A stretch of 64,000 nt of DNA from Arenicola marina (taxonomy: Eukaryota > Annelida > Polychaeta > Arenicolidae). The translations under genes and the position numbers were made by a program. Below the pieces are notes generated by a model. It worked only from the letters and a program-made list of their open reading frames with translations, was not told where the DNA came from and did not search any database. Positions 14,410 to 54,541 of this stretch are shown piece after piece. Within the stretch, counting starts at the first letter, position 1. Every line of letters begins with the position of its first letter. Where the stretch lies: assembly GCA_964019135.1 (NCBI GenBank), contig OZ025257.1, forward strand, positions 40,875,798 through 40,939,797. Direction: 5' to 3'.

Positions 14410-15027
14410 TATTCAGATTCAGATAGAATCCGGGCCTGTTGGTCTGATGTTTAGTGCCATACCAAATCAGCCACAGCGGCTGCCCACTTCGGAAATAACT
14501 GCATCATTGTTATATGCATAGAGTGATAATATATATAGATATATCTAATGCAATATCATGCTAACTGCGTATTTTACTTTTATCAGGTGTCCAATGACGG
14601 TTGAAATCATTCTCCGCTACTCCGAAGCGCCCTCAACCGGAGACGACGCGAGAGACGAGAACCTCTTCCCACCGTCCAGGACACTATGACCTTGACCTCT
14701 GACTAGCTGCGTGCGTAGCCACGTGACTGTCGGAAAGTTCGGCGGGCATTCTGAGCACCCGGCGAAGGCATCCTGAATCTCATAATTGGAGTAGGCTGCA
14801 TCGGATCCATTGCGACCGGTTCATTACCAGCCCAGAGCGGCATACAGTGAAATATTCGCAATCACTGAAGCCGAGTATATCAAATGAACTTTTACTTAAC
14901 ATGGTTAGACTCATCGTCGCCAGCTGAGGCTATTGTCGCGCGGACGTCGAGGTAATCCCGGCTCCCGGTGGTCGGTCTACTAAGTGCCACGCCGGCTCTG
15001 TCGCCACCCGGACACCAATCAAATAAC
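14410..15027 (+). other. 5' flank of the orphan membrane-protein gene
   Basis: This is GC-rich from about 14580 and carries no clear TATA box next to the gene. The coding frame of the downstream gene stays open upstream to at least 14968, so an upstream exon or a longer N-terminus cannot be excluded. Confidence 0.3.
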
Positions 15028-15729
15028 ATGGGGCCGGAGACGGGCACCCCGCCTCACGACGCCGCGCTGGCCGTCACCCTGGTGACCATCTTCCTGGTCT
15101 TCGGCCTGGTCCTCGTGCTGGCCATGTGCCAAGGCTGCTGGCCGTCCAGTCGCCGGAAGCGGAAGGACGGTGTCCCCGACCCGCACCGCCTGGACGTCCA
15201 CACGATCTCCAACCCGCACGCCGGCGCCCGGGAGCTGGCCGCCGCCATGGGCAAGATCAACCCGGTTTTCCTGAAGGACTTCGACCAGGACACGGATACG
15301 GGGTTTGTCATTTACAACCCTGCGGCCATAACGGAGTCGGCCCCCGTGCACGCACCGCCGCCAACGGCCCGCCAACACCAACACCAAGGGCCGCCGGATG
15401 CCATAGCATATCAGGCCAATCATCGCCAAGGTCAAGGCCAAAGACAGACAAGCGTCAAATCACACCGGACAGGTCAACGCCAGGCACTGCCAGGCCAAGA
15501 CCAAACGCAGATGAACGCTAGAGCATACCAGGCCAGTCAGGGCCAACGACCACCATCAGGTCAAGGCCAAAGACCACCGCCAGGTCAAAGTCAAGGCCAA
15601 AGACCACCGCCAGGTCAAAGTCAAGGCCAAAGACCACCGTCAGGTCAAGGTCAGAGCTATGTCAGACAGTACAATGACAAGCAACTCGAGGACTTCGTTT
15701 TTATGAACAATAACGCCCAGCGATATTGA
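15028..15729 (+). CDS. Orphan single-pass membrane protein with Gly-Gln-Pro repeat tail
   Basis: I do not recognise this 233-residue protein. The start is the first ATG in frame (AACATGGGG context). A 15-residue polar N-terminus without a signal peptide leads into one hydrophobic helix at about residues 12-33 (AALAVTLVTIFLVFGLVLVL). Cys-34 and Cys-37 follow, which could be palmitoylated, then a strongly basic stop-transfer run (SSRRKRK, 40-46). This predicts a short outside N-terminus and a cytosolic tail. Residues 71-97 (KINPVFLKDFDQDTDTGFV and on) look folded or conserved. The rest is low-complexity, with tandem GQRPPPGQSQ units at about residues 172-211, and the C-terminus is VRQYNDKQLEDFVFMNNN followed by AQRY. 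Coding bias (GC-rich third positions in the first half), a lone long ORF and a downstream AATAAA support a real gene. It may be intronless or a last exon. Confidence 0.72.
   Translation: MGPETGTPPHDAALAVTLVTIFLVFGLVLVLAMCQGCWPSSRRKRKDGVPDPHRLDVHTISNPHAGARELAAAMGKINPVFLKDFDQDTDTGFVIYNPAAITESAPVHAPPPTARQHQHQGPPDAIAYQANHRQGQGQRQTSVKSHRTGQRQALPGQDQTQMNARAYQASQGQRPPSGQGQRPPPGQSQGQRPPPGQSQGQRPPSGQGQSYVRQYNDKQLEDFVFMNNNAQRY
15549..15650 (+). repeat. In-gene 30-bp coding repeat
   Basis: Units of 'ggtcaaagtcaaggccaaag' plus 'accaccgcca' are repeated about three times, nearly identical. They encode GQRPPPGQSQ. The period is a multiple of three, so copy-number change would keep the frame. Confidence 0.85.
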
Positions 15730-24900: not shown

Positions 24901-27900
24901 GAGGAGTTTATGCATTAATTGTATTTATATTGCGCAATTGAGTTTGGCTGAGTTCGCCGTTTTCAATGTACCGGTAGTTAGTTCTGACGTCGCGCTAACT
25001 CAGTCGGTGAGGTCTGTTTGCCGATTTTGCCTTCATGGCCACACAATTTGGTCTTTCTAAACAGCGGGAGGTCGGCTTATGCGGTCCGTGCAGCTTCACT
25101 CTTGGAGACTGTTGCTTTCTTACCTCATGGTAAGCACGTGTCCTCATGCCGTAGACGATTAGAATAATATAAATCATTGTAATTGATTTACATAATAACT
25201 ACCGAATGTATTTTAAAAGACCTCTTTCTCTTGTTGACTTATTTTGTGGGGTTCCCAACAACGAATACATAAGTGTGAATGATCACCTCAAAAATCACAC
25301 TTGTTGGGGTAGTTGATGTATTATCACTTCATACCGATATAACTGTGGGATATATTTTTTCGTATGTGTTCCCGAGCTTACTCGAAATATAATTACGGTC
25401 GTCATGTGCGCAAACTTATGGGATAGGACAGGACATATGGTTAGGATAGGACAGAAATAGTAAAGTGGGGGGAGGGAGCCTTTCTCCCAGTCACCCAGAC
25501 TTTGTGTCTGTATAGTTCGATCTCATGTCGGTCATGTTTCTGTATTTCTTCTGCAGCTTCTTGCCCAATAAGATGAAGGAAGTGGCACGCTATCGCCACA
25601 AAGCTTTCTGCGGGACTTACTCCAAGGATGGAAGCATCTTCCTGTCCGCATGCCAAGGTGAGACCGCGAGGACAAGGGACTCCCGTTGGTATGGAGTAGT
25701 TGAGACGCGATCTGGGTGATGGTTGTGTCCTTGTCGTATAACCCGGCTTCAAACTTGTGGCCCTGGGGCATCATGTGGTTTCCATTATTCGAGCCCTTCG
25801 CAAAGAGCAGGGGATTACCCCGGGTACATGGCTCCGCTCTTCCCTTCCATGGACGCATTAGACACGCATTATACAACCAACCAACCAACTTTTTACTAGC
25901 TAGAATAAACTATTACCATGGGTAAGCTTGTAAAATTGATACGTTTGTATCTATGAGCCCTGTGATGTAACATGATTGTTATTAGAAGATAAGAATATTA
26001 AAAGAAATTGTCGGTATTTACCATCTACATTGAAACGATGCTCTATATATGTGTGCAAATGGCCTAGGATGCATTCTTCGGTTATTGAATCCATACATTA
26101 TTCGTACGCTGGAAGTGTTGACTGATTTTATCATGGAGCGAGTCAAAGTTATGTCGAATATTGGGATCGTTTTGCTGCCAGAATTGAGGTGAACTGTTTG
26201 TAGACCTGTCACGTTAGTCTCGACTGCTAAACGTTGGGTTAAAGTCTTCTCTTTTTTGTTGTTACTATAGATCGTCAGATTAGGGTTTATGACTCGGCTC
26301 TTGGAAAGTTCAACTTGATGAAGACAATTCAAGCCAAAGACGTAGGCTGGTCGATATTGGACACAGCCTTTAGGTCAGTATAAACCGCCCGAAGAGCATG
26401 TGCTTTTCCTCAAGTATTACATGAATATAAAACCATTTAGTTTTTCGAAGGCTCTGGCCCGAACCATATCGGTATTACTTTACATTGGTACGATTAATAC
26501 TGTTCGAATTATCTGATGTTATCTGGCAATTTGAGAAGCCATCCTACTAAATCTTGCATTTTTGAGATATGTATCAAATGTATTGAATGACAATTTGGTT
26601 CCTCACCGCCCATTTCTCTTCTGCAGTCCTGATGGCAACTTCTTGATCTACTCAAGCTGGTCTGACTGCAGTCAGTATTTCTTGACCTTGACCTGTTTGC
26701 AAATACAGTTTTAAATTTTAAGATATTCTCAACGTGTCTGTGACGACAATTTGCAAAATCCAGTTTACCCTCATAATAAAGTTCTCTATTTTAAGGCAAA
26801 ACAGTCATTGTTAATAATGTATAGATTGTACGCTTATTTTGACGTTGTTTGTTAATACATATAACATCTTTGCAGTATGTTTTTAAGACTATAAACTTAC
26901 GTTTTGTCTTTCAGTTCACATCTGTAGTATCCATGGTGACTACGACACCCACAATGCATTGCATCTCTTCCCTACCACGGACCACAGTTTCTGTATATTT
27001 TCCGTATGCTTCTCTGAAGACAACAAAGAGATTCTTGGAGGGTAAGGCTGTGTTGTACTCCACGATTATGGAATTCATGCTAGGGTAAATGCTGCGTTAA
27101 CTATAGATTAGGGACTAAGGGAGGTTAAGGCTCTGTTATACTCCAGGATAAGGCAGCTTATGATCTATATATATATGTATATATCGCTCAGGCAGTCCGT
27201 TAACGAATATTCACCATACTGCTTGATAGCAGTACTTTCTTGTGTTCCTAATCATGTGTATGACGATGTTTACTTCATGATTATATGTCAGTAGCTATAC
27301 ATTTGTAAAAGTGACGTTTCGGTTAAAACTACAGCGCTATTGTGACTGTTCTTAACACGACTCTCATTTATTCTCGATTTTGACCCTCAGGGCTAACGAC
27401 GGGTGCCTGTATGTATATGACCGAGAACGAGGAGAGAGAACTCTGAAGGTAGTTGGCAGTATGTCTTTTAGAGAATTTCAAGGTGACAGATGATAAAATT
27501 TTAGCCTTGTATGTGTTTTCGGTGGTTGGATCGATTGTCAGTAAGACGACATCCATATATGTGTTTCTTCGCGGTGTTTAGATCGAGTGTCACGCGGATG
27601 ACATCAATATCTATTTCTTTTCGGTGTTCAGAGCCAGTATCACGAAGATGACATAAATATCTATTTCTCTTCGGTATTTAGAGCTAGTTTCTCGACGATG
27701 GCGTCAATATTTATTTCTTTTCGGTGTTTAGATCGAGTGTCACGAAGATGACGTCAATGCTGTTGCTTTCGCCGATGCTTCGTCGCATATAGTGTTCAGC
27801 GGCGGGGACGACGGCCTCTGTAAGGTGAGCACTCTGTGCCAAGGCAAGGGGGGGTGATGTCTGTCAGGGGGTGCTCTCACCAAGCGGCGGGGACGACGGC

Positions 27901-30900
27901 CTCTGTAAAGTGAGTACTCTGTGCAAAGTGGGGGGGGGGGGGTGTCTGTCAGGGGGTGCTCTCTCCAAGCGGCGGGGACGACGGCCTCTGTAAAGTGAGT
28001 ACTCTGCACAGGCGGGGGGGGGTGGATGTCTGTCAGGGAGTGCTGTCTCCAAGCGGCGGGGACGACGGCCTCTGTAAAATGAGTACTCTGTGCAAAGGGG
28101 GGGGGGGGTGTCTGTCAGGGAGTGCTCTCTCCAAGCAGCGGGGACGACGGCCTCTGTAAAGTGAGTACTCTGTGCAATAGGGGGGGGGGTGTCTGTCAGG
28201 GAGTGCTCTCTCCAAGCAGCGGGGACGACGGCCTCTGTAAAGTGAGTACTTTGTGCAAAGGGGGGGGTGTCTTGTCAGGGAGTGCTCTCTCCAAGTAGGA
28301 TGGCGTCTTGTGAAAGTCACCGGTCTGTAAGTAAACAAATTGTAAGGTGAGGAGGCACTTTGAAATTCATCTTTTTAGGCGCTTAATTTACTCTGGTCAG
28401 CGACATTTCTCCACGTCATTCACAGGTCTGGGACCGGCGGATGTTGCGCGAGAACAACAACGCTCCTGTTGGTGTCCTGGCCGGCCACTCGGACGGCATC
28501 ACGTACATCGATTCCAAGGTCAGTTAAACGCGCATCTCAAGGTCACGATCGAGCCTTCCCACCTCAATTGATGTGCGCGTTTAGCTGCGGACCAATAAGT
28601 GAAAAGCTGAAATTGGTGGGTTGTTTTTCTTTGAGATCCCGTTTTGTCAAACGGGGACTAGTTAGTATGCTGGAACCAACAGGTCGTGGGTTCGAACCCT
28701 GGCGTTTGCATCTGGATCATGCTCCATCCATCTCCGTGTCATTATCCCGGGAGCTTCCCAGGATGACCTTCATCTACACAAAGTTGGCCCCAGACCCTTA
28801 GTTTTCTAAGTCACGATAATATCATCTGTGTTTAGTAATTTACTATGACTATAATAGTGCGCTTAATGAAAGCATATCATTGTACCATAACATATTATTA
28901 TGGGCGTTGAGCAATTAAGGAATGGTAATATTAATTTGAATGGTATATCCGTTAACAGGGGACGGAATATCGTAGTATTACTGCATACCACGTACATACG
29001 TGTTTCTGCTCTATTTAATCATTGTTGTTGATCGGCCAAAATCTCTGCTCCGACTTGGTTCAGTGTGAACATACCGCACCGAAATATCCACATTATAAGC
29101 TATGCTTCTGAAGATGTTATCGTAAACGTTAATGAGCGATGTGTAGCTGTCGAAATACTCACTACTAGAAATAATTTGTACATGATCAATTAGATGTGGA
29201 ACCGGCTCAGCTTTGGCATAAACGCCATTTTAATTTATATATCTGCATATCTGTTGTATTATGAAATCAGCAGCGGATGCTTTTATGCTTTCATATTACC
29301 AAGCAGAATCCAGCTCACCGCAGTACATCAAGAAGCAGCTTTTAAGTCATTCTTCACCCCCTGCTACTCCTGAGTGATCAGTTTTTCGTACTTTAGGCGC
29401 CCTTACCTCCCGCCCCTCCTCCCCGCCTCCGTTTACTAACATCATGTGTTCTTCACTGTATTAGGTTCACTGCTACAGTTAATGTATAAAAATCCAGACT
29501 TATTGATGATATCCGTTGTCAGGGAGATACGCGGTACCTGGTGTCCAACTGCAAAGACCAGACAATCAAACTGTGGGACATGCGGAAGTTCTCGTCTCAA
29601 GCTGCTCAAGACGTGAGTCCTCACTTCTATTAATGGAACGACTTGTATAATACAAACATATAAACTGTTTGTGCACCTCAGTTGATTCTTGAAAAATTAA
29701 ATTCATACCCCAAATATCGATGTATATAACACACTTGTGTACGTAATGCATGTAAAAATCCATTATTCTCAGAAGAAAGGCCTAAACAAATAGAATGAAA
29801 ACCCGGCTCAAACTTGTTTACACGAAATCATCTCGGTGGGTATATTTAATGCGCCTTAACACGATTACGAACTTATAAGATTTGGTGCTCTTACCGCGCG
29901 TCTATATAACTAAGTAGCTTATCGTTAGGGGTAAATGAGTTTGTTTACCGAGTACATTCTTCGTGAACCGTTAGGGCACTCGCCGAGAGGTGGCGCGCCA
30001 GACGTGGGACTACCGCTGGCAACAAGTGCCGCGGAAAGGTACGAATAATCATTGTTCTAATTATAAATCATCAGTGCGGAGTACAAAATACTACTACTAC
30101 TACTAGGCTTAATAAGAAAAATAATATTACATAAATATATTCCGGAATCTTCATTTGTGACGTCGATAATAACGGACTGCTTTGTCTATGACGTCAAGCG
30201 TCCCGTAATTTAAGTTACCTTTATTTGTTGCATACGCGATAAGAATACATACTGCGTATGGGGTATACCTTGCTGTTCTAGAAGGGTAGGTGGAGCTTTT
30301 ATCGTATATTTGTGTCAGGTACAACAGGATAGTTTGATGCAATCATATTGGACTATCCATGTGAAATTATACATGTGAAGATATACATGTGAAGCTATAC
30401 AGCAGGATAGTTTAGTTTCGAGTCCATGTCATTCTTTACGTAGTCAGATGGCGTCAAATGTATGTAGACACCAAGTATAAAATTCCCTCGCTCAATATCG
30501 CCTTGTTCCTTGCGCGGCTGGTTCCCTGTTCCGCCAGTGGTGCGGAAGACTGTCACGATCCCTGGCGACAGCTCCCTGATGACCTACAAAGGTCACAGTG
30601 TCCTGAACACCTTGATCCGGGCGCGGTTCTCGCCCCTGTTCTCCACGGGACAGAGATACATCTACTCCGGCTGCGCCTCCGGGGCCGTCATCAGTAAGTA
30701 CATGCGTGAAGGTAGTAAATATATGTATTATACAAATACTGTGTACAACAGTAATATACGAGAGATAACTAGGCCCAGCGTCACTTTGAAGAAAAACTAA
30801 TTATAAACAGTTAGATCTGATCTAGCTGTTTATTTCAGTACAAAGTACATTAAAAACGTATGTGCAAACTGAGTATATGATTCTGAAACTTAAGAATAAT

Positions 30901-35838: not shown

Positions 35839-36475
35839 CGATTCCCGACGAGATCCTCTATGAACCCGGTAATATAAGTATATATAGAATATGGGATGTG
35901 TCGCGACTGTATACACCCGATAAGTGCTTCAAATGGTGCTGACAGTAAGTTAACACGTAATTAACCGTCTGCAATTCAGTCTAATAAAGCACCTGATTCG
36001 CTTGTCTATGAATATAATGTCTTGTCATTTTGTTTCGTCGCTTGTATCCAGTGCTGGGGACCACTTTTTCTCCGCTGACCGGGTCGCAATTAGGCCAAGA
36101 AACCCAAACACACGCTTTCTTCCAATGGTAGATATATTTACCAGTACCAGTTGGTGCGTTGTACATTATGATACAAACCATGCCGTAACGTTTGGCAGTC
36201 ACACATGTATATACATATATGCTTTTTACATGGTTGGCATTTTATCGATGTATCAGAAAACACATAACAAAATTGTTTCTATGTGTTCGCTGGATCGATC
36301 GTTTGTGATAAGTATAAGGCGTGGGACGTACATCGGAACACGTATTATAACAGGCGAAAATAGTTACACAGTAAGATTTCGTGGCCATCCTTGTGCGCAG
36401 TGAATGGCAAGCACTGAATTATACGAATCCGACTATATACGAATCCGAGTTCTTATATAATTGTAGAAAGTATAT
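35839..36475. other. Intergenic, nothing recognised
   Basis: The open frame at 36002-36403 has no recognisable domain, and no splice or promoter context supports it. Confidence 0.35.
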
Positions 36476-38052
36476 TGTGTGGATGGGTCTACCGTGTGAG
36501 ATAAGGCTCAGAGTATTGTCTGGATGGGTCTACCGTGTAATATAAAGGCTCCTTATGTTGTATGGATGGGTCTACCGTGTGATATAAGGCTCAGGGTATT
36601 GTATAGATGGGTCTACCGTGTGATATAAGGCTCAGGGTATTGTATAGATGGGTCTACCGTGGGACAAAAGTCTTTGGGTATTGTATAGATGGGTCTACCG
36701 TGTGATATAAGGCTCGAGGTATTGCATGGATGGGTCTACCGTGTGATATAAATGTTCTTTATGTTGTATGGTTGGGTCTACCGTGTGATATAAGGCTCGG
36801 GGTATTGTCTGGATGGGTCTACCGTGTGATATAAGGCTCGAGGTATTGCATGGATGGGTCTACCGTGTGATATAAGGTTCGGGGTATTGTATGGATGGGT
36901 CTACCGTGTGATACAAGGCTCGGGGTATTGTCTGGATGGGTCTACCGTCTGATATAAATGTTCTTTATGTTGTATGGATGGGTCTACCGTGTGATATAAG
37001 GCTCGGGGTATTGTCTGGATGGGTCTACCGTGTGATATAAGGCTCGGGGTATTGTATGGACTGGTCTACCGTGTGATACAAGGCTCGGGGTATTGTCTGG
37101 ATGGGTCTACCGTGTGATATAAATGTTCTTATGTTGTATGGATGGGTCTACCGTGTGATATAAATGTTCTTTATGTTGTATGGATGGGTCTACCGTGTGA
37201 TATAAGGCTCGGGGTATTGTCTGGATGGGTCTACCGTGTGATATAAGGCTCGGGGTATTGTCTGGATGGGTCTACCGTGTGATATAAGGCTCGGGGTATT
37301 GTATAGATGGGTCTACCGTGTGACATAAGTCTTGGGGTATTGTGTGGATGGGTCTACCGTGTAATATATTTCTCGGGGTATTGCATGGATGGGTCTACCG
37401 TGTGATATAAGGCTCGGGGTATTGTCTGGATGGGTCTACCGTGTGATATAAGGCTCGGGGTATTGTATAGATGGGTCTACCGTGTGACATAAGTCTTGGG
37501 GTATTGTGTGGATGGGTCTACCGTGTAATATAATTCTCGGGGTATTGCATGAATGGGACTACCGTGTGATATAAGGCTCGGGGTATTGTATAGATGGGTC
37601 TACCGTGTGACATAAGTCTTGGGGTATTGTGTGGATGGGTCTACCGTGTAATATCATTCTCGGGGTATTGCATGGATGGGACTACCGTGTGATATAAGGC
37701 TCGGGGTATTGTATAGATGGGTCTACCGTGTGACATAAGTCTTGGGGTATTGTGTGGATGGGTCTACCGTGTAATATCATTCTCGGGGTATTGCATGGAT
37801 GGGACTACCGTGTGATATAATTCTCGGGGTACTGCATGCATGGGACTACCGTGTGATATAATTCTCGGGGTATTGCATGGATGGGACTACCGTGTGATAT
37901 AATTCTCGGGGTATTGCATGGATGGGACTACCGTGTGATATAATTCTCGGGGTATTGCATGGATGGGACTACCGTGTGATATAATTCTCAGGGTATTGCA
38001 TGAATGGGTCTACCGTGTGATATAAGTCTCTGGGTATTGTGTGGATGGGACC
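36476..38052. repeat. 41-bp minisatellite, ~38 copies, with higher-order structure
   Basis: The unit is TGGATGGGTCTACCGTGTGA followed by TATAAGGCTCGGGGTATTGT and one base. Variants are not random: between about 37280 and 37800 three monomer types (ggctcgg/tatagat, cataagtcttgg/gtgtgg, aatat.attctcgg/gcatgg) recur in fixed order as a ~123-bp trimer, about four times. From about 37790 the GGGACTACC variant with 'aattctcgg' takes over. Confidence 0.95.
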
Positions 38053-43900: not shown

Positions 43901-46900
43901 CTCCACCAGAATCAGCAGCTGTTGCTTCATCGACTCGCATACATCGTTCAAGGTGGCCACCTTCTTCTGAGCGATGTCCGTTGTGCTGATCGGAGCTGAG
44001 ATCTGAACCAATAAGGGAGAAGAAACCACCAGAGATATATTAAAACAGCCAATGAGAAAAGTCCGTTGTGCTAATCGGGGCTGAGATTTGGACCAATGAG
44101 GGACCAGAAACCACCAGAGATATATTAAAACAGCCAATGAGAAATGTCCGTTGTGCTGATCGGGGCTGAGATCTGGACCATTGAGGGACCAGAAACCACC
44201 AGAGATATATTGAAACAGCCAAGGAGAAGTGTCCGTTGTGCTGATCGGGGCTGAGATCTGAACCAATGAGGGACCAAAAACCAGAAACAGTAATACAGCA
44301 AATGAGTTAAGGTGTAGTTAAGTATAATGAGATATACTCCCTCTTTAAATTACTAGATACATCTAGTTTCTGCCCCCTCTAAACCGACTAGCCCCCCCCC
44401 CCCAGTCAGTTTTTCAATACCTTCGCGACGCCTCCCTACCTAAACCCTGGATACACACCAGGCTAGAGCCAGGCCCCGGGCGTACCTCCATTCATCAGGT
44501 GCCCATTGTTTAAACATGTCTGTACCTGTGTATACTGTGTGGCAGCTGCACAAGTCGGCGTGATGCGCAGCCCATCACGCATATTCCAAGCCAACTTAGC
44601 GTTCAACTGGGGGCTTATCAAGGTGCTCAGTTAGTAACTAATAAAAGAGGTGGTGATAATTCACGAGGGCGTATTTTTAAAGGGCATTCGAGTACATCGG
44701 CGAGTCAGAGCACTATTAGGGTCGGAATATCAGCTCCACCCCCCACCCCCACGTCTATCTTTATTGAGGCAAACACAGCATTAGGGATTTGGTTGGGGTG
44801 GGTGGTGCCAATCCGCTGGGTTTTTTTTCTAAAATAAATCCAGTCCTTTTAAAGTTGCATATCGAGCTCTTTCCCGCCAAAACTAAAGAGGTTAAAATAC
44901 ATATAAGAATCAGTCCTTGAATCATCCAACATTTCTTTTGTCTATACTCAACACGAGCCAGATTGCCAAATGGAGTCTCTTAACCTAGCCCGTGATATCA
45001 ACTTAGTGGTAAACGTCATCAGTTTTTGTGCTTCGCGATGCTTTGTTGTACGTAGCAGAGCCGCGACATACACGTTTGCCATATCACAGCCAATACGGCG
45101 ATGTTGATTAGGTTTCTGGATTTCTGGAATGAAACAGTTTTCTGCAAATCGTGATATATATATATGTCGCCTGGGCTTAAATTTGGCGGGAACAGCTCGA
45201 CAAGTAGCTTTAACTGTTTGAGAGGGGTTGTCCCTCAATTTAACGTGGCATAACATTTTCTGTAGGTTTGCGAGCGTAACCCTGCCACACGTTTTAGTAC
45301 CCGTCTCTGTTTGTATGATGCTTTGACGAGTCAATTCCTAGTTCTAAAAAGCCATAGCCTTCGTGACCACAATTCTACACCTAAAGACGCAAAGCTACAT
45401 TAGACACTTGTCTGCAAGTCTTTCCCAAACAAGCATCTCCATGAAATCTTATGGATGGGTGAGCTGAGGGTAAATAGTGCAAAGATGCAGTGAACCTGAT
45501 CCCAGTGAACCAAAACGCCCTCTGAGAATGTGAAGGTCATTTGTGAGCCATTCATTTATGTCTCATATCGCTGGGGGTGTGAGCCTGGATCGCGTGGCAC
45601 CGGAACTGTTCAATGGAGCCCCTCCCCCCACCCCCCGCTAAGCCAACGCACACAAACCTCCCCCGCCGTCAGCAAAAACAGCCCCCACCCCACATCGCTA
45701 CCCCCACCACACGCATCACCACACCTTGTCCACCCATGCCATCAAACATCCCGTTGCACCGCTATCGTCATTGGACGAGCCATTGGGCAACAAAAGCATT
45801 GACCCGTTACTGCCTGAGTCTGGTCGCCCCCCCATCCCCCATAATCCCCCCCCCCTACCCCCCGCCCCACGAAAGTTAAATACATGAAATCAGTCACAGG
45901 CGCAAAGCCAGAGCCCACCCACCCACCTACCACCACAGAAATGTCCCGAACCGCCATGTTTTTCACACCTTGCTTGTCACTCCAGCGGAGAACGATGGTG
46001 TACTTGTATATTTGCCAACACCTGCCGTCTCAAGGGTGGGCGCGGTGGGAGGGGAAGGGGTGGGGCGTAATCCTTGCTACCCCCCCCCCCCCCTCCACAT
46101 ACCCCAACCCCGGAATATTGAGTAGAGGGACAGGGGGGCGGGTAGGTACGCCACGCTAGCCATCCGGCCGGCCGAACAAACAATACTCAACACGCCTAAA
46201 TATTTGATCATCTTTTAAGTCGGGTTTGTTCCGAAAGTTGATCCGCACTGAAGTGAAGAGGGAGCAAAGAGACGTCGACCGACAAACTTCCACGCGTTTG
46301 AGGAATTGCTTCACACGGATTTTTCGTTTGTCGCCGCGCAGGAACTGCTGTAAGAGGTGGAGGGTAATGACAGGGGGGAGGGGGAGAGGTGGTCGTGTAC
46401 CAATCCCGGTGTTTGTCGCCATCCATATTACAAGCGTTCTGGGTATGGAGTTGATTTTTTTCCCGTTCAATCACATTGACAACCCACCTGGGGTGCTATT
46501 TGTGCGCTGCCAGACAAAGACTGGTTCACACGTGTGTCCAGGACTGTCAATGAAGGATTATTTCCTCACTAATGCGGCCACTTTCATCTCGGTCACATTC
46601 GTCAACGCATAGCTATGACCACTACATTATTATGGGGGGGGGGGGGGGTAAGGGGAGGTTGTGTTCCCAGTGTTCCCAAAGAAAGGGCCGATTGCATGAT
46701 ATAAATTCCAATTCACGGTTATTTAATATTGGAAGTCCCAGTTCATGATTAATGAAAATCCTTGATCACCACAGTCCGCGAATACCTGATTCTCAGTTCA
46801 CGAAGAATTATTTTCCCCATTCCCAGTTCACGATAAAATGAAAAGCTTATTCCCGAGAAACGGAAATACCCCTTGCGCCCCCTTTTACTCGAAAATGCGG

Positions 46901-49900: not shown

Positions 49901-52900
49901 CAGCTGATACAGCATATCTTGAAGCAAACAATACGATTTGACAAGTGACGTCTGTATATATTATACACCACGTTGGTTCGCCGTGCTTGGTGTTCACCCT
50001 GGGTATATATATCATATATTACCTCTTAAGTCCATAGTCATCAAGACCTAGTTCCATTAGTACTTGTCAACGAAGACCTTATACATTGTCATATCATGAG
50101 CTCTATATCACTGACCTTGTCGTCGATAACGTTAGGCAGAACATGCACTAGTGGTTTAATAATAGTATTATTCATCGAAAGGAGGCGTTATTCAAGTTAC
50201 ATATTGCTAACTCATTTACGACAATAAGTACGCGTCATCCATTATTCATTAAAAGGAGACGTTACTCCAGTTATTTATTGCTAATTCATTTACGGCCATG
50301 AGTACGTGTCACGGGCTTTTCATTTCACCCTGAACTGGGAATGAGGAAAATAATCCTTCGGGAACTGGGAATGAGATATTAGCCGACCGTCGTGATCAAT
50401 GCGATTAGGATAGGAAATAAACCAATTTCGCACAAGAAGCCGTTTTATATGCATTTTCTCGCAGAAACCGTAGTAACATTTCACCCTGGGAGGTAACCAA
50501 CAAAGTTTTTTTTCTTCAAAAATGCCCAGTCGTAGGGTGCGGGATGAATTTATTCCGGACCTGGTGTCAAAATGGGTCGCAGCCAAGTGAGTGCAAGAAG
50601 GTTAAAAACGGCCGAAATGGACCTTTATTTTTTTTTTGCATGTTAATTCCACTGGTGTGTATTTCCATATTGAAAGCATTTTCGTTATGGACCAATTATA
50701 CGGTTAACTATATTAAGCATTATACGATAATTTTTATTGCGCAGTCATCTTAATACAATTGTTCCTGGGCAACGTTATTCAAATCCTGATGATCTTCATG
50801 ATAACAGCAACAGCGTTCATCCTTAACATGCAACATTTTGGTAAAACGACCCCCACGAGATGTAATTTAATTTTGTAAATATAATTTTAAAAGCTAATAG
50901 ATCTAACAAAAATATGGTAAATCATCTTAAAGCTATTTGAACAGATGTGTCCAACCAGATTTTAAAAAATCTGCATTTGATCCTGAAGCTCGTCATTCAC
51001 ATTTAACACAATTGTAACATTTGCTTACAATTCTCGCGGCGAACCTGCCGGAAAAGGTATGACAGCTTACAGTAAGTTGTAAGCTACATGCACTACGTCA
51101 CAGATTTGTCTGTAGTACGTCTTTCACTCCATACTAGGGATGTTAAGCAGGCTCCAGGTAATGAATTTCAGTAATAACTAAATGAAACTAATAGATAATT
51201 ATTGCACTGATCAGGCCGTAACATGTAACAAATTTAGATCCTGACATGGTTTCGGCGGGAAGCAACTGTTTGAACAGCTTTAATAATCTCCATCCTAGGA
51301 GGAAAAAGCGAAAAGCTTGAAGCGAAACTTGGAGGTGGCGTTACCTTCTTTGCGCATGCCCGCCCGGAAGCACTTCTTGAGCCGGCAGTAGCGGCACTGG
51401 TTGCGCTTGTCCTTGTCCACGATGCAGTTCCGGTTGAAGCGACAGGTGTACACGTGGTTCTTGCGCACGCTGCGCCGGAAGAAGCCCTTGCAGCCGTCAC
51501 AGCTGGCCGCGCCGTAGTGCTTGCCCGTGGCGCGGTCGCCGCATATGGCGCAGAACTGGCTGATGCCCTGCGTGCCGGGGAGGCCTCCCTGCTGGGAGCC
51601 CGGTCCCGCCATCTGAGTCGGGGAGCCCTGGATCGCCTGGATGGCGGCCAGGCTCATGTCCCCGCTCTCTGCAAACAGGATTAAAGAAATATAGGGAAAT
51701 GTTCAATATTATTGGGGAATACTACGAGTGGGAAATTGGAAATGGGAAAGAGGCACATTTGAAGGTTAAAGTGATTATGGATATCAAAAATCTGCATATT
51801 GCTGCTTTTAGTTCGCGAGGTAAATAGCCGTCAGTACCCGTGTGGTACCACATAAGATATAGAGATACACACAAGGCTACAGACGTGAGGATACATACAG
51901 AGGTGGGAATACACACAGATATACAGAGGTGGGAAAACATTCAGAGATACAAAGGTGAGAATACACACAGAGATACAGAGGTAGGAATACACACAGATAT
52001 ACCTCGGTGTGAGTACACACAGAGATACAGAGGTGGGAATACACACAGAGATACAGAGGTGGGAATACACACAGAGATACAGAGTGGGAATACACACAGA
52101 GATACAGAGGAGGAACACATTCAGAGATACAGAGGTAGGAATACACACAGAGATACAGGGGTGGGAATACACACAGAGATACAGAGGTGGGAATACACAC
52201 AGAGATACAGAGGAGGAATACATTCAGAGATACAGAGGTAGGAATACACACAGAGATACAGGGGTGGGAATACACACAGAGATACAGAGGTGGGAATACA
52301 CACAGAGATACAGAGGAGGAATACATTCAGAGATACAGAGGTAGGAATACACACAGAGATACAGGGGTGGGAATACACACAGAGATACAGAGGTGGAAAT
52401 GCACACAGAGATACAGAGGAGGAATACATTCAGAGATACCAAGGTGAGAATTCCCACAGAGATACCGGGGTGAGAATACACAGAGATACAGAGGTGGGAA
52501 TACACACAGAGATAAAGAGGTGGGAATACACACAAAGATACAGAGGTGGGAATACACACAGAGATACAGAGGTGGGAATACACACAGGGATACAGCGATT
52601 TGAATACACATAGAGATACAGAGGTGGGAATACATACAGAGATACAGAGGTGGGAATACACACAGAGATACAGAGGTGGGAATACACACAGAGATACAGA
52701 GGTGGGAATACACACAGAGATAAAGAGGTGGGAATACACACAGAGATACAGAGGTGGGAATACACACAGAGATAAAGAGGTGGGAATACACACAGAGATA
52801 CAGAGATGTGAATACATGCAGAGATACAGAGGTGAGAATACCCACATAGATACAGAGGTGGGAATACATACAGAGATACAGAGGTGGGAATACACACAGA

Positions 52901-54541
52901 GATACAGAGGTGGGAATACACACAGAGATACAGAGGTGGGAATACACACAGAGATACAGAGGTGGGAATACACACAGAGATACAGAGGTGGGAATACACA
53001 GAGATACAAAGGTGGAAATACAGAGTAGCAGATATAGGAGACGACGATAGCAATATTATCATTGAGGTAGGGGGTAGAGGCAGACTTGTAAGATAGAGGC
53101 AGAAAACTTGACGTGTGGTTTGAGGCGAGAGAGAGATTGCGATCCATTGGATAACACGAGCATGCTCTAGTATCAAGTCAGGCAGACATGTCCAAACTTC
53201 AATCAGGCAGACAACCAACCAGACACTTCGGTTCTGACGTTAGTCAACCACTGTCAAAACTTGTGATAAGACGCAAGCTACCTAGATATCATTAAGAGTC
53301 AATTTCGAGACATCACAAATCGAATCTCTATCTAGAGATGAGGAATCGATTTATAGCTATCACGAATCGATTTATAGCTATCACGAATCGATTTATAGAT
53401 ATCACGAATCGATTTATAGATATGACGAATCGATTTCTAGATATCATACATCAACATCTAATGTATACATAGATATTATGAATTGCTGTCATACATATTG
53501 ACCAGGGACGTTATTGTCAATGCCTTCAAAAATGAGCACTTCTCATTAGTCATTATTAGAATATTAAATATTGAATACATGTAATATACTATTGGAAACA
53601 TATTCGGTACAAGATCTAGACTTGCAGTATATTTCACTTAATGGGGTCCCAGGAGTTACCATGGTAATGCCAATGCGAGTATCGGTCTTCATTGTATACT
53701 CCCCACAGGTTTGACCTTTGACCCACGTAGTTGCGCTGACAATTAACGTGGATGCTTCAGGACGTCTATAATACACACTCACAAGGACGTCCTTTTGGTG
53801 GCACATTTAGTTGTAATGAATAACTTTGCGGATATATCACACAAGGCACGTCTGTAACGTTCTAACCCAATCGATCCACAGGCGGTATACATATAAACAA
53901 AAACTGTGTCAGAAGAAACACCTTTTTGGTGTTCTCATTGAGCATAAACGAGGAAAGACCTCTCATATTGGCACCGAATGACCCATACACTTAGAAAAAA
54001 CCCTTACTAGCACCCAGTAAACCATAAACTTGGAACATACGATCCCACTGGCACACAGTATGAGTATACATGTCTTAGATTTAGCATACATTTGTAAAGC
54101 ATTCAGCACTGGCTTCAACAAGACCAGCTCATTTAAAATGTTCGACGAGCTATTAAATTCTGTGGCTTTCTGCTTATGGATTATATTACACTGTTAAGCC
54201 TGTTATTTATGCATTATGACATTAAATGCAATGAATTAGTGTTTTGTGCCTGTACTGTGTACACAAGGACTAAACTGGGCCAAAAACAATATGCAATATA
54301 TATATCCGCCATAATAAAGCGAAGAAATCATATCCTGCATTCAAATTGGGCTCCTGGCGTCGGAAGGAAAGAGTAAATAGACCATCAGAGTTCCCCTGGA
54401 TCAGCTGGAATCCTGGATAAGGGGGTGGGTGGTGAGGGGGAGTGGGAGAGGGAGGGGGTGTAAAGTCCCGTTACCTGTCAGCAGGTAGTCTGAATGCATA
54501 TCGACGAGGTCCGGGAATTCCGTGGGCATCCTGCTGGACAT
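40949..54541 (-). CDS. HNF4: HNF4 nuclear receptor, complete 7-coding-exon gene
   Basis: Coding exons: 54541-54475, 51668-51345, 48607-48492, 44002-43853, 43106-42866, 42411-42175, 41640-40949. Phases (1,1,0,0,1,1) agree; the sum is 1827 bp, 608 residues. HNF4 binds DR1 sites as a homodimer and holds a fatty acid in its ligand pocket. Exon 1 encodes [14 protein letters not shown], like the vertebrate P1 A-domain (LVDMDMADY). The DNA-binding domain is about residues 62-128, with [20 protein letters not shown]-box [15 protein letters not shown] and [14 protein letters not shown]. The hinge has [19 protein letters not shown]. The ligand-binding domain ends at residue 378 with [13 protein letters not shown], the AF-2 helix; it includes [20 protein letters not shown] and [20 protein letters not shown]. 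The F domain is 230 residues, rich in Gly, His, Gln, Ser and Pro, ending [18 protein letters not shown]; vertebrate F domains have SEPYKL and KQEVI. The first in-frame ATG used is at 54541; the frame is open further upstream, so the N-terminus may be longer. Confidence 0.97.
42173..42174 (-). other. GC splice donor of the last HNF4 intron
   Basis: The exon ends GGAG at 42175 and the intron starts GCAAGT (42174 downward). Phase 1 is required by the next exon (41640: GC GTC TCT AAC), and only this cut gives LLGG followed by VSND in frame. AG|GCAAGT is the strong consensus of natural GC-AG introns. Confidence 0.85.
42655..42790. repeat. 15-bp tandem repeat (GAATCTACGGATCCT)
   Basis: About nine imperfect copies lie in the HNF4 intron between the two ligand-binding-domain exons. 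Confidence 0.85.
43235..43400. repeat. 21-bp tandem repeat (TATGTCACAATTATATTTAAA)
   Basis: Eight near-identical copies in an HNF4 intron. The period is a multiple of three, which creates false open frames on both strands. Confidence 0.92.
43973..44290 (-). repeat. 85-bp array of an HNF4 splice acceptor
   Basis: The start of the exon at 44002 (encoding ISAPISTTD) and its acceptor are repeated three more times upstream at exactly 85-bp spacing; equivalent exon-start positions are 44087, 44172 and 44257. The copies at 44172 and 44257 keep AG before ATCTCAGC; the one at 44087 has AA. The 44257 copy has the same TTGGTTCAG as the true site. The frame is open from 44257 to 44002, 255 bp. Confidence 0.92.
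46650..46880 (+). mobile_element. Interspersed 'CCCAGTTCACGA' element, copy 2
   Basis: The same blocks in the same order as 20000-20275: 'aaagaaagggc', 'atttaatattgg', 'aatccttgatcacc', 'cgaagaattattttcc' and 'cccgagaaacggaaat'. It also starts after a long G run. It lies in an HNF4 intron. Confidence 0.75.
48706..48785 (-). mobile_element. SINE family C 3' fragment
   Basis: 'ggtgttttatgcc', 'caggctaaactgggc' and 'aacttcccgcaatg' match the 3' half of the 18747-18932 SINE. The head is absent. Confidence 0.6.
49680..49770. repeat. TA-rich microsatellite
   Basis: Interrupted (AT)n with 'catatatatatatatat' and near-palindromic stretches, in an HNF4 intron. Confidence 0.8.
50309..50402 (-). mobile_element. 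Interspersed 'CCCAGTTCACGA' element, inverted fragment
   Basis: On the minus strand it reads TTGATCACGACGGTCGGCTA, then two ATTCCCAGTTC blocks, then GTGAAATGAAAAGCCC, matching the 3' part of the copy at 20000-20275. Confidence 0.7.
51879..53030. repeat. 26-bp minisatellite, ~43 copies, in HNF4 intron 1
   Basis: The unit is GAGGTGGGAATACACACAGAGATACA. Most copies are the exact length, so frames of up to about 300 codons stay open on both strands (minus repeats a [17 protein letters not shown] motif). These frames are products of the repeat, not genes. A sub-array at about 52090-52440 carries an inserted 'gaggaggaatacattcag' variant in a higher-order pattern. Confidence 0.95.
53335..53455. repeat. 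21-bp tandem repeat (CACGAATCGATTTATAGATAT)
   Basis: About five copies in HNF4 intron 1, decaying at both ends. Confidence 0.88.

Follow-up and report, generated by a model that had tools for sequence, protein, structure and literature searches.

The 64,000-nucleotide (nt) window analysed here (Arenicola marina, assembly GCA_964019135.1, contig OZ025257.1, positions 40,875,798 to 40,939,797 of the forward strand) carries part of a gene for DCAF11, one exon of which is bordered on each side by a tandem array repeating its own splice junction. The exon spans 31 codons in phase 0. When it is joined with its two neighbours, a continuous reading of 81 residues is obtained, which aligns to the solved DCAF11 structure 9ptu_A at E = 4.9e-40, and the arrays sit beside existing introns. 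The upstream intron (27449-27731 in window positions, as are all simple positions below) is 283 nt long, and its first intact decoy acceptor is reached after 133 nt, a decoy being an extra copy of the junction. A search of the 867-Mb genome, where such counts are lower bounds, revealed no further copy of the locus; a spliced retrocopy, considered as a natural cDNA, was discarded as the search matched only the three separate exons.

In the acceptor array the unit consists of about 23 intron nt followed by 27 exon nt. The AG of the real acceptor ends at 27731 and those of the decoys at 27681, 27631 and 27581, while the outermost copy, near 27529, reads GG, so that AG is retained in three of the four extra copies. 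The donor unit is formed by 27 exon nt and about 57 intron nt, including a G run of variable length; GT is found at 27825 (the real site) and in four of the five extra copies (27910, 27995, 28161 and 28242), the remaining one having AT at 28079. Tandem Repeats Finder (TRF) and the sequence itself thus agree with the initial annotation as to the places of both arrays, their different periods, the three intact acceptor copies with one lost, and the four acceptors and five donors left to the splicing machinery. Arrays with a period of at least 20 were absent from all 200 dinucleotide shuffles of 26900-28900. Splicing at the closest decoy, whether acceptor or donor, would shift the frame and lead to a stop, and a stop enters the reading when any of the three intact decoy acceptors, or any of the five alternative donor positions, is used with the real partner, as had been stated for the copies first checked. 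The codons for SGGDDGLCK, attributed at first to every donor copy, are present in all except the last two, which encode SSGDDGLCK. With the exon-intron boundary marked by a slash, the donor decoys read AAA/GTGAGT and the real donor AAG/GTGAGC, and all five score below the real site with a generic donor matrix; acceptors were compared by pyrimidine content only.

Table. Junction arrays, exons and an isolated junction match in the window
Feature	Position	Strand	Details
DCAF11 upstream exon	27391-27448	+	ANDGCLYVYDRERGERTLK; donor GT at 27449; homology to 9ptu_A
DCAF11 acceptor-junction array	27516-27758	+	TRF: period 50, 4.8 copies, score 265
Real DCAF11 exon	27732-27824	+	93 nt; IECHEDDVNAVAFADASSHIVFSGGDDGLCK
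DCAF11 donor-junction array	27798-28295	+	TRF: 6 copies spaced 81-85 bp, score 742
Isolated exact 11-mer of the real DCAF11 junction	28341-28351	+	TGTAAGGTGAG; AAG/GTGAGG, GT at 28347; matched by 1/500 shuffles
DCAF11 downstream exon	28426-28518	+	VWDRRMLRENNNAPVGVLAGHSDGITYIDSK; homology to 9ptu_A
HNF4 acceptor-junction array	43974-44283	-	period 85; real AG 44004-44003; about 29 exon nt per unit

The four GT copies and the AT copy of the donor array were as first described; the further, decayed copy is doubtful, since the last donor unit aligns poorly to the array tail and 47 of 500 shuffles gave an equally good match. The isolated 11-mer listed in the table is possibly an old decayed copy, or else a chance match.

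Neither the gene nor the window is alone in this respect. An HNF4 exon encoding part of the ligand-binding domain, 16 kb from the DCAF11 exon, has three copies of its acceptor junction upstream of the real one at 85-bp steps, two of which keep AG within CAG (A at 44259 and 44174), the third, near 44089, reading CAA. How common such arrays are was estimated from a survey of the same genome covering three families, each represented by its 30 best matches (dynein AAA_6, 30 of 94; Cpn60_TCP1, 30 of 49; myosin head, 30 of 77) with 1500 bases of flank per side; arrays were accepted at a TRF period of at least 20 and a score of at least 80, and periods that were multiples (164, 166, 203, 229) were taken by eye as two or four units. 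Two loci whose match contains multiple stops, and which have no array (L046 and L083), were retained among the 90. Arrays with one edge inside the exon match were found at 20 of the 90 exons (10 dynein, five CCT, five myosin), six of them at acceptors and 14 at donors. Clean copies of the splice junction were seen on inspection in 18 of these (five acceptor, 13 donor), the two set aside being L053, with a complex unit, and L088, in which the array probably lies beyond the exon end. Among all 157 survey arrays, none spanned an exon match and none lay wholly inside one. Copy numbers may be high: the dynein acceptor array L019 (C3:8356450-8356638 with flanks) has at least 19 extra copies 75 bp apart, the myosin donor array L071 at least 24 at 62 bp, and the CCT donor array L056 at least 40 at about 29 bp; these counts are minima, as several arrays extend past the end of the retrieved stretch. 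When each of the 90 loci was dinucleotide-shuffled once, no qualifying array arose. The "natural test" of splice-site choice seen by the initial annotation in the DCAF11 exon is a fair description, although the case is not singular, given HNF4 in the same window, 18 to 20 of the 90 survey exons and the amphioxus arrays discussed below.

A G run follows soon after every donor copy in 27825-28295, and also in the donor arrays of L015, L047 and L091, its length being variable; instability driven by G-quadruplexes is a possible reading of these runs. In the match table of the dynein AAA_6 search, taken alone, six rows with identical family positions at C1:13759095-13760358 apparently mark another array. 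At C1:2035309-2037048, on the minus strand, there are 18 mitochondrial-carrier rows, all matching the same stretch of approximately 35 family positions and spaced at 91-base intervals with a single gap; this series is probably a further junction array. Intronless CCT-like genes were considered as natural cDNAs for the array-bearing CCT exons and discarded, the long open frames of L036 and L054 being at best diverged relatives.

Arrays of this type have been described in amphioxus under the name of mirages, as tandem units at exon boundaries which reportedly do not disturb splicing (PMC3087553, PMC3902484). The examples given there are Adh3, the globins BflGb6 and BflGb9, and TnC, with six and three units in two BflGb6 haplotypes; the Adh and TnC mirages are named as such in PMC3902484, where the repeats of lancelet PGBD5 are likened to them. 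The units of DCAF11, HNF4 and the survey arrays likewise span the exon-intron boundary, both 5' and 3' boundaries are affected (both sides in DCAF11; six acceptor and 14 donor arrays in the survey), and many copies, though not all, keep their AG or GT (304 of 317 overall; three of four and four of five in DCAF11; two of three in HNF4). The amphioxus cases were reported gene by gene, whereas here both ends of a single exon are involved, 18 to 20 of 90 sampled exons carry an array, and extra copies reach about 40. Internal tandem repeats at exon-intron boundaries have also been reported from human duplicated genes, with 27 intron modifications (PMC2812944). These too are boundary minisatellites, which that report ties to intron gain and alternative splicing among paralogues of recent origin; by contrast, the genes concerned here are conserved and their reading is kept. 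The match to the amphioxus mirages and to the human boundary repeats places the DCAF11 arrays in a known kind.

The junction arrays are thus confirmed, explained as mirages, and common in the sampled part of the genome. We consider it probable that they are minisatellites that arose by tandem duplication and straddle exon-intron boundaries, and that the exons are spliced by pairing of the acceptor and donor nearest to each other across the exon. An array would be born when a short stretch that happens to straddle the boundary is duplicated in tandem, and would grow by unequal exchange or slippage. Such a duplication would leave the exon intact beside one complete splice site and put the extra copies into the intron, at low cost as long as the acceptor and donor that splicing brings together across the exon are those closest to each other. 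The reading is preserved by the site adjoining the exon, which is transcribed first in donor arrays and last in acceptor arrays; in either kind no other site lies closer across the exon or farther away across the intron. Since it comes first in one kind of array and last in the other, neither a "first come, first served" rule nor choice of the nearest site across the intron explains both, while pairing across the exon would fit the two kinds alike. The means by which the spliceosome distinguishes real splice sites from look-alikes have long been in question and are usually studied with engineered constructs; here, in many natural arrays, the look-alikes are near-identical to the real site and differ from it mainly in position. 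An order-of-transcription model makes opposite predictions for donor and acceptor arrays, proximity across the intron should fail for both, and under exon definition the site next to the exon is expected in either kind.

An unlikely alternative is that the exon-adjacent site prevails over the decoys by its greater intrinsic strength, whatever its position. The DCAF11 donor agrees with this, all five decoys scoring below it, as do five of 10 decoys at L078 and 12 of 40 at L056 relative to their real sites. However, in 10 of 14 donor arrays (L015, L022, L023, L028, L038, L047, L056, L071, L091 and L092) the majority of decoys lie within 0.5 bit of the real donor, and in L020 and L037, respectively, 23 of 28 and 15 of 32 are stronger. 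With so many decoys about as strong as the real donor or stronger, it is improbable that strength by itself governs the choice.

It may also be supposed, with about as little likelihood, that some decoys are used, yielding either transcripts, alternative or nonsense, through which the gene is regulated, or proteins with in-frame repeats. Retention of the splice dinucleotides was examined at 19 of the 21 junctions, each with at least three extra copies and including the three in the window, with the decoys' own consensus as reference; L027 and L092, with one and two extra copies, were left out. GT or AG was kept at a rate of 0.959, against 0.897 for neighbouring dinucleotides, and the per-array difference favours the junction (P = 0.014). 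With CpG contexts omitted, the array means are 0.942 and 0.892 (P = 0.016), a slight excess that would suit use of the decoys; yet neither the percentile rank of the junction, compared with one half (mean 0.57, P = 0.11), nor the comparison of exon-derived with intron-derived columns (0.950 against 0.925, P = 0.12) was significant. A purging of decoys by mutation was rejected, retention at the junction being no lower than at its neighbours. Among the 21 arrays, only HNF4 has a nearest decoy that is not intact. In 18 of the 21, use of the nearest decoy would cause a frame shift or a stop. An open in-frame unit would be inserted in the other three (L012, L019 and L022), which also speaks for decoy use; nevertheless, inserts are in frame at only four of the 21, below the seven expected by chance, and the idea that arrays are kept in frame to encode repeats was rejected on this count. 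In amphioxus, moreover, reverse transcription-polymerase chain reaction (RT-PCR) is reported to have shown normal splicing (PMC3087553). Open frames cross two of the arrays, of 1037 codons at L012 and 2487 codons at L019, and could be annotated as protein repeats, so that gene finders may be misled.

Much less likely is a process aimed at junctions, such as breakage linked to transcription or splicing, in place of random tandem duplication. When the arrays were shifted at random inside each survey locus, 15.3 +/- 3.6 junction-crossing arrays were expected against 20 observed (at least 20 in 12.4% of shifts) and 14.1 +/- 3.2 loci with a crossing array against 20 (at least 20 in 4.65%), an excess that such a process would produce. 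After merging of overlapping loci into 60 stretches (230,793 bases, 120 arrays, 23.9% coverage), however, 21 of 201 array edges fell in exon matches, and their density there was not significantly higher than outside (1.07 against 0.85 per kb; binomial P = 0.31), nor did the position at which the junction falls in the unit depart significantly from uniformity (Kolmogorov-Smirnov P = 0.22, n = 21). Exon-spanning arrays, of which the shifts predict 12.8 +/- 2.8, were not observed; arrays wholly inside an exon match were not observed either, with 2.2 +/- 1.5 expected and none in 11.7% of shifts. The similar densities indicate that array edges enter exons about as freely as they enter other DNA, and no sampled exon has been swallowed. 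An artefact of assembly, raised at first as a worry about the DCAF11 arrays, is hardly credible: tandem arrays are indeed prone to errors of copy number, but within most arrays the copies show differences of several percent, the repeated unit is a different one in each array, and the arrays are spread over many contigs.

Several points weigh against the explanation by mirages and pairing across the exon. That the exon-adjacent sites are used would follow from protein homology and from RT-PCR in another animal. For alternative sites, Carranza et al. report that those nearest across the exon are preferred in large introns and the opposite in short ones (PMC9225289); the DCAF11 upstream intron is short, so that pairing across the intron, and hence some use of decoys, is predicted there, and at this place the inference of pairing across the exon could fail. 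The same intron makes DCAF11 a sharp case for telling the two modes of pairing apart. All five donor decoys of this exon have A for G at position -1, and strength may suffice there. The survey comprises the best-scoring 30 matches per family and thus only well-matched exons, with approximate exon ends and other exons in the flanks, and the absence of arrays wholly inside exons is weak evidence, few being expected by chance.

A human minisatellite, in a gene that is reportedly 6-16/IFI6, offers a further comparison. It contains multiple splice donors and belongs to an interferon-induced transcript (Turri et al. 1995), thus likewise repeating a splice donor; it differs in that the extra donors, to judge by the title of that report, can be used. 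In the potato RdRp gene tandem duplication has also copied splice signals (PMC4974935); unlike that case, no new intron is evident here and the duplicates lengthen an existing one. Neither a genome-wide survey of mirages nor a mirage from an annelid was found in the literature searched, outside which most subscription papers lie; what is new here seems to be the scale, and perhaps the host. A broader proposition, which we advance tentatively and hold slightly more doubtful than not, is that in this annelid genome about one in five conserved exons bears a mirage and about a quarter of the sampled genic DNA is minisatellite, with arrays crossing junctions at the neutral rate, and that splicing is blind to hundreds of intact, near-identical and often equally strong sites. 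If so, the genome would constitute a natural, genome-wide experiment in which nearest-across-exon pairing takes precedence over the strength of a site, its place in the order of transcription and its closeness across the intron, and mirages would form a reservoir for new introns. More interesting than the single DCAF11 exon is the genome as a whole, as a large natural experiment on splice-site choice.

Scans of the whole window against Rfam and for tRNA genes gave no matches. The genome is very rich in minisatellites, and two large ones lie in the window at 36473-38049 (41 bp x 38) and 51895-53022 (26 bp x 44). A plus-strand open frame (14956-15729) contains a putative membrane segment and, at 15560-15653, an in-frame repeat of 30 bp that encodes PPSGQGQRPP-like units. 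In the rest of the genome no match was obtained for the GFP family, which we take to be typical of lancelets, or for the molluscan haemocyanin family, but the controls were equally silent, so that this does not demonstrate absence. The erythrocruorin-linker (haemoglobin-linker) family, which we take to be typical of annelids, hints at an annelid with four matches at C14:21342291-21353966, the best at E = 1.6e-20.

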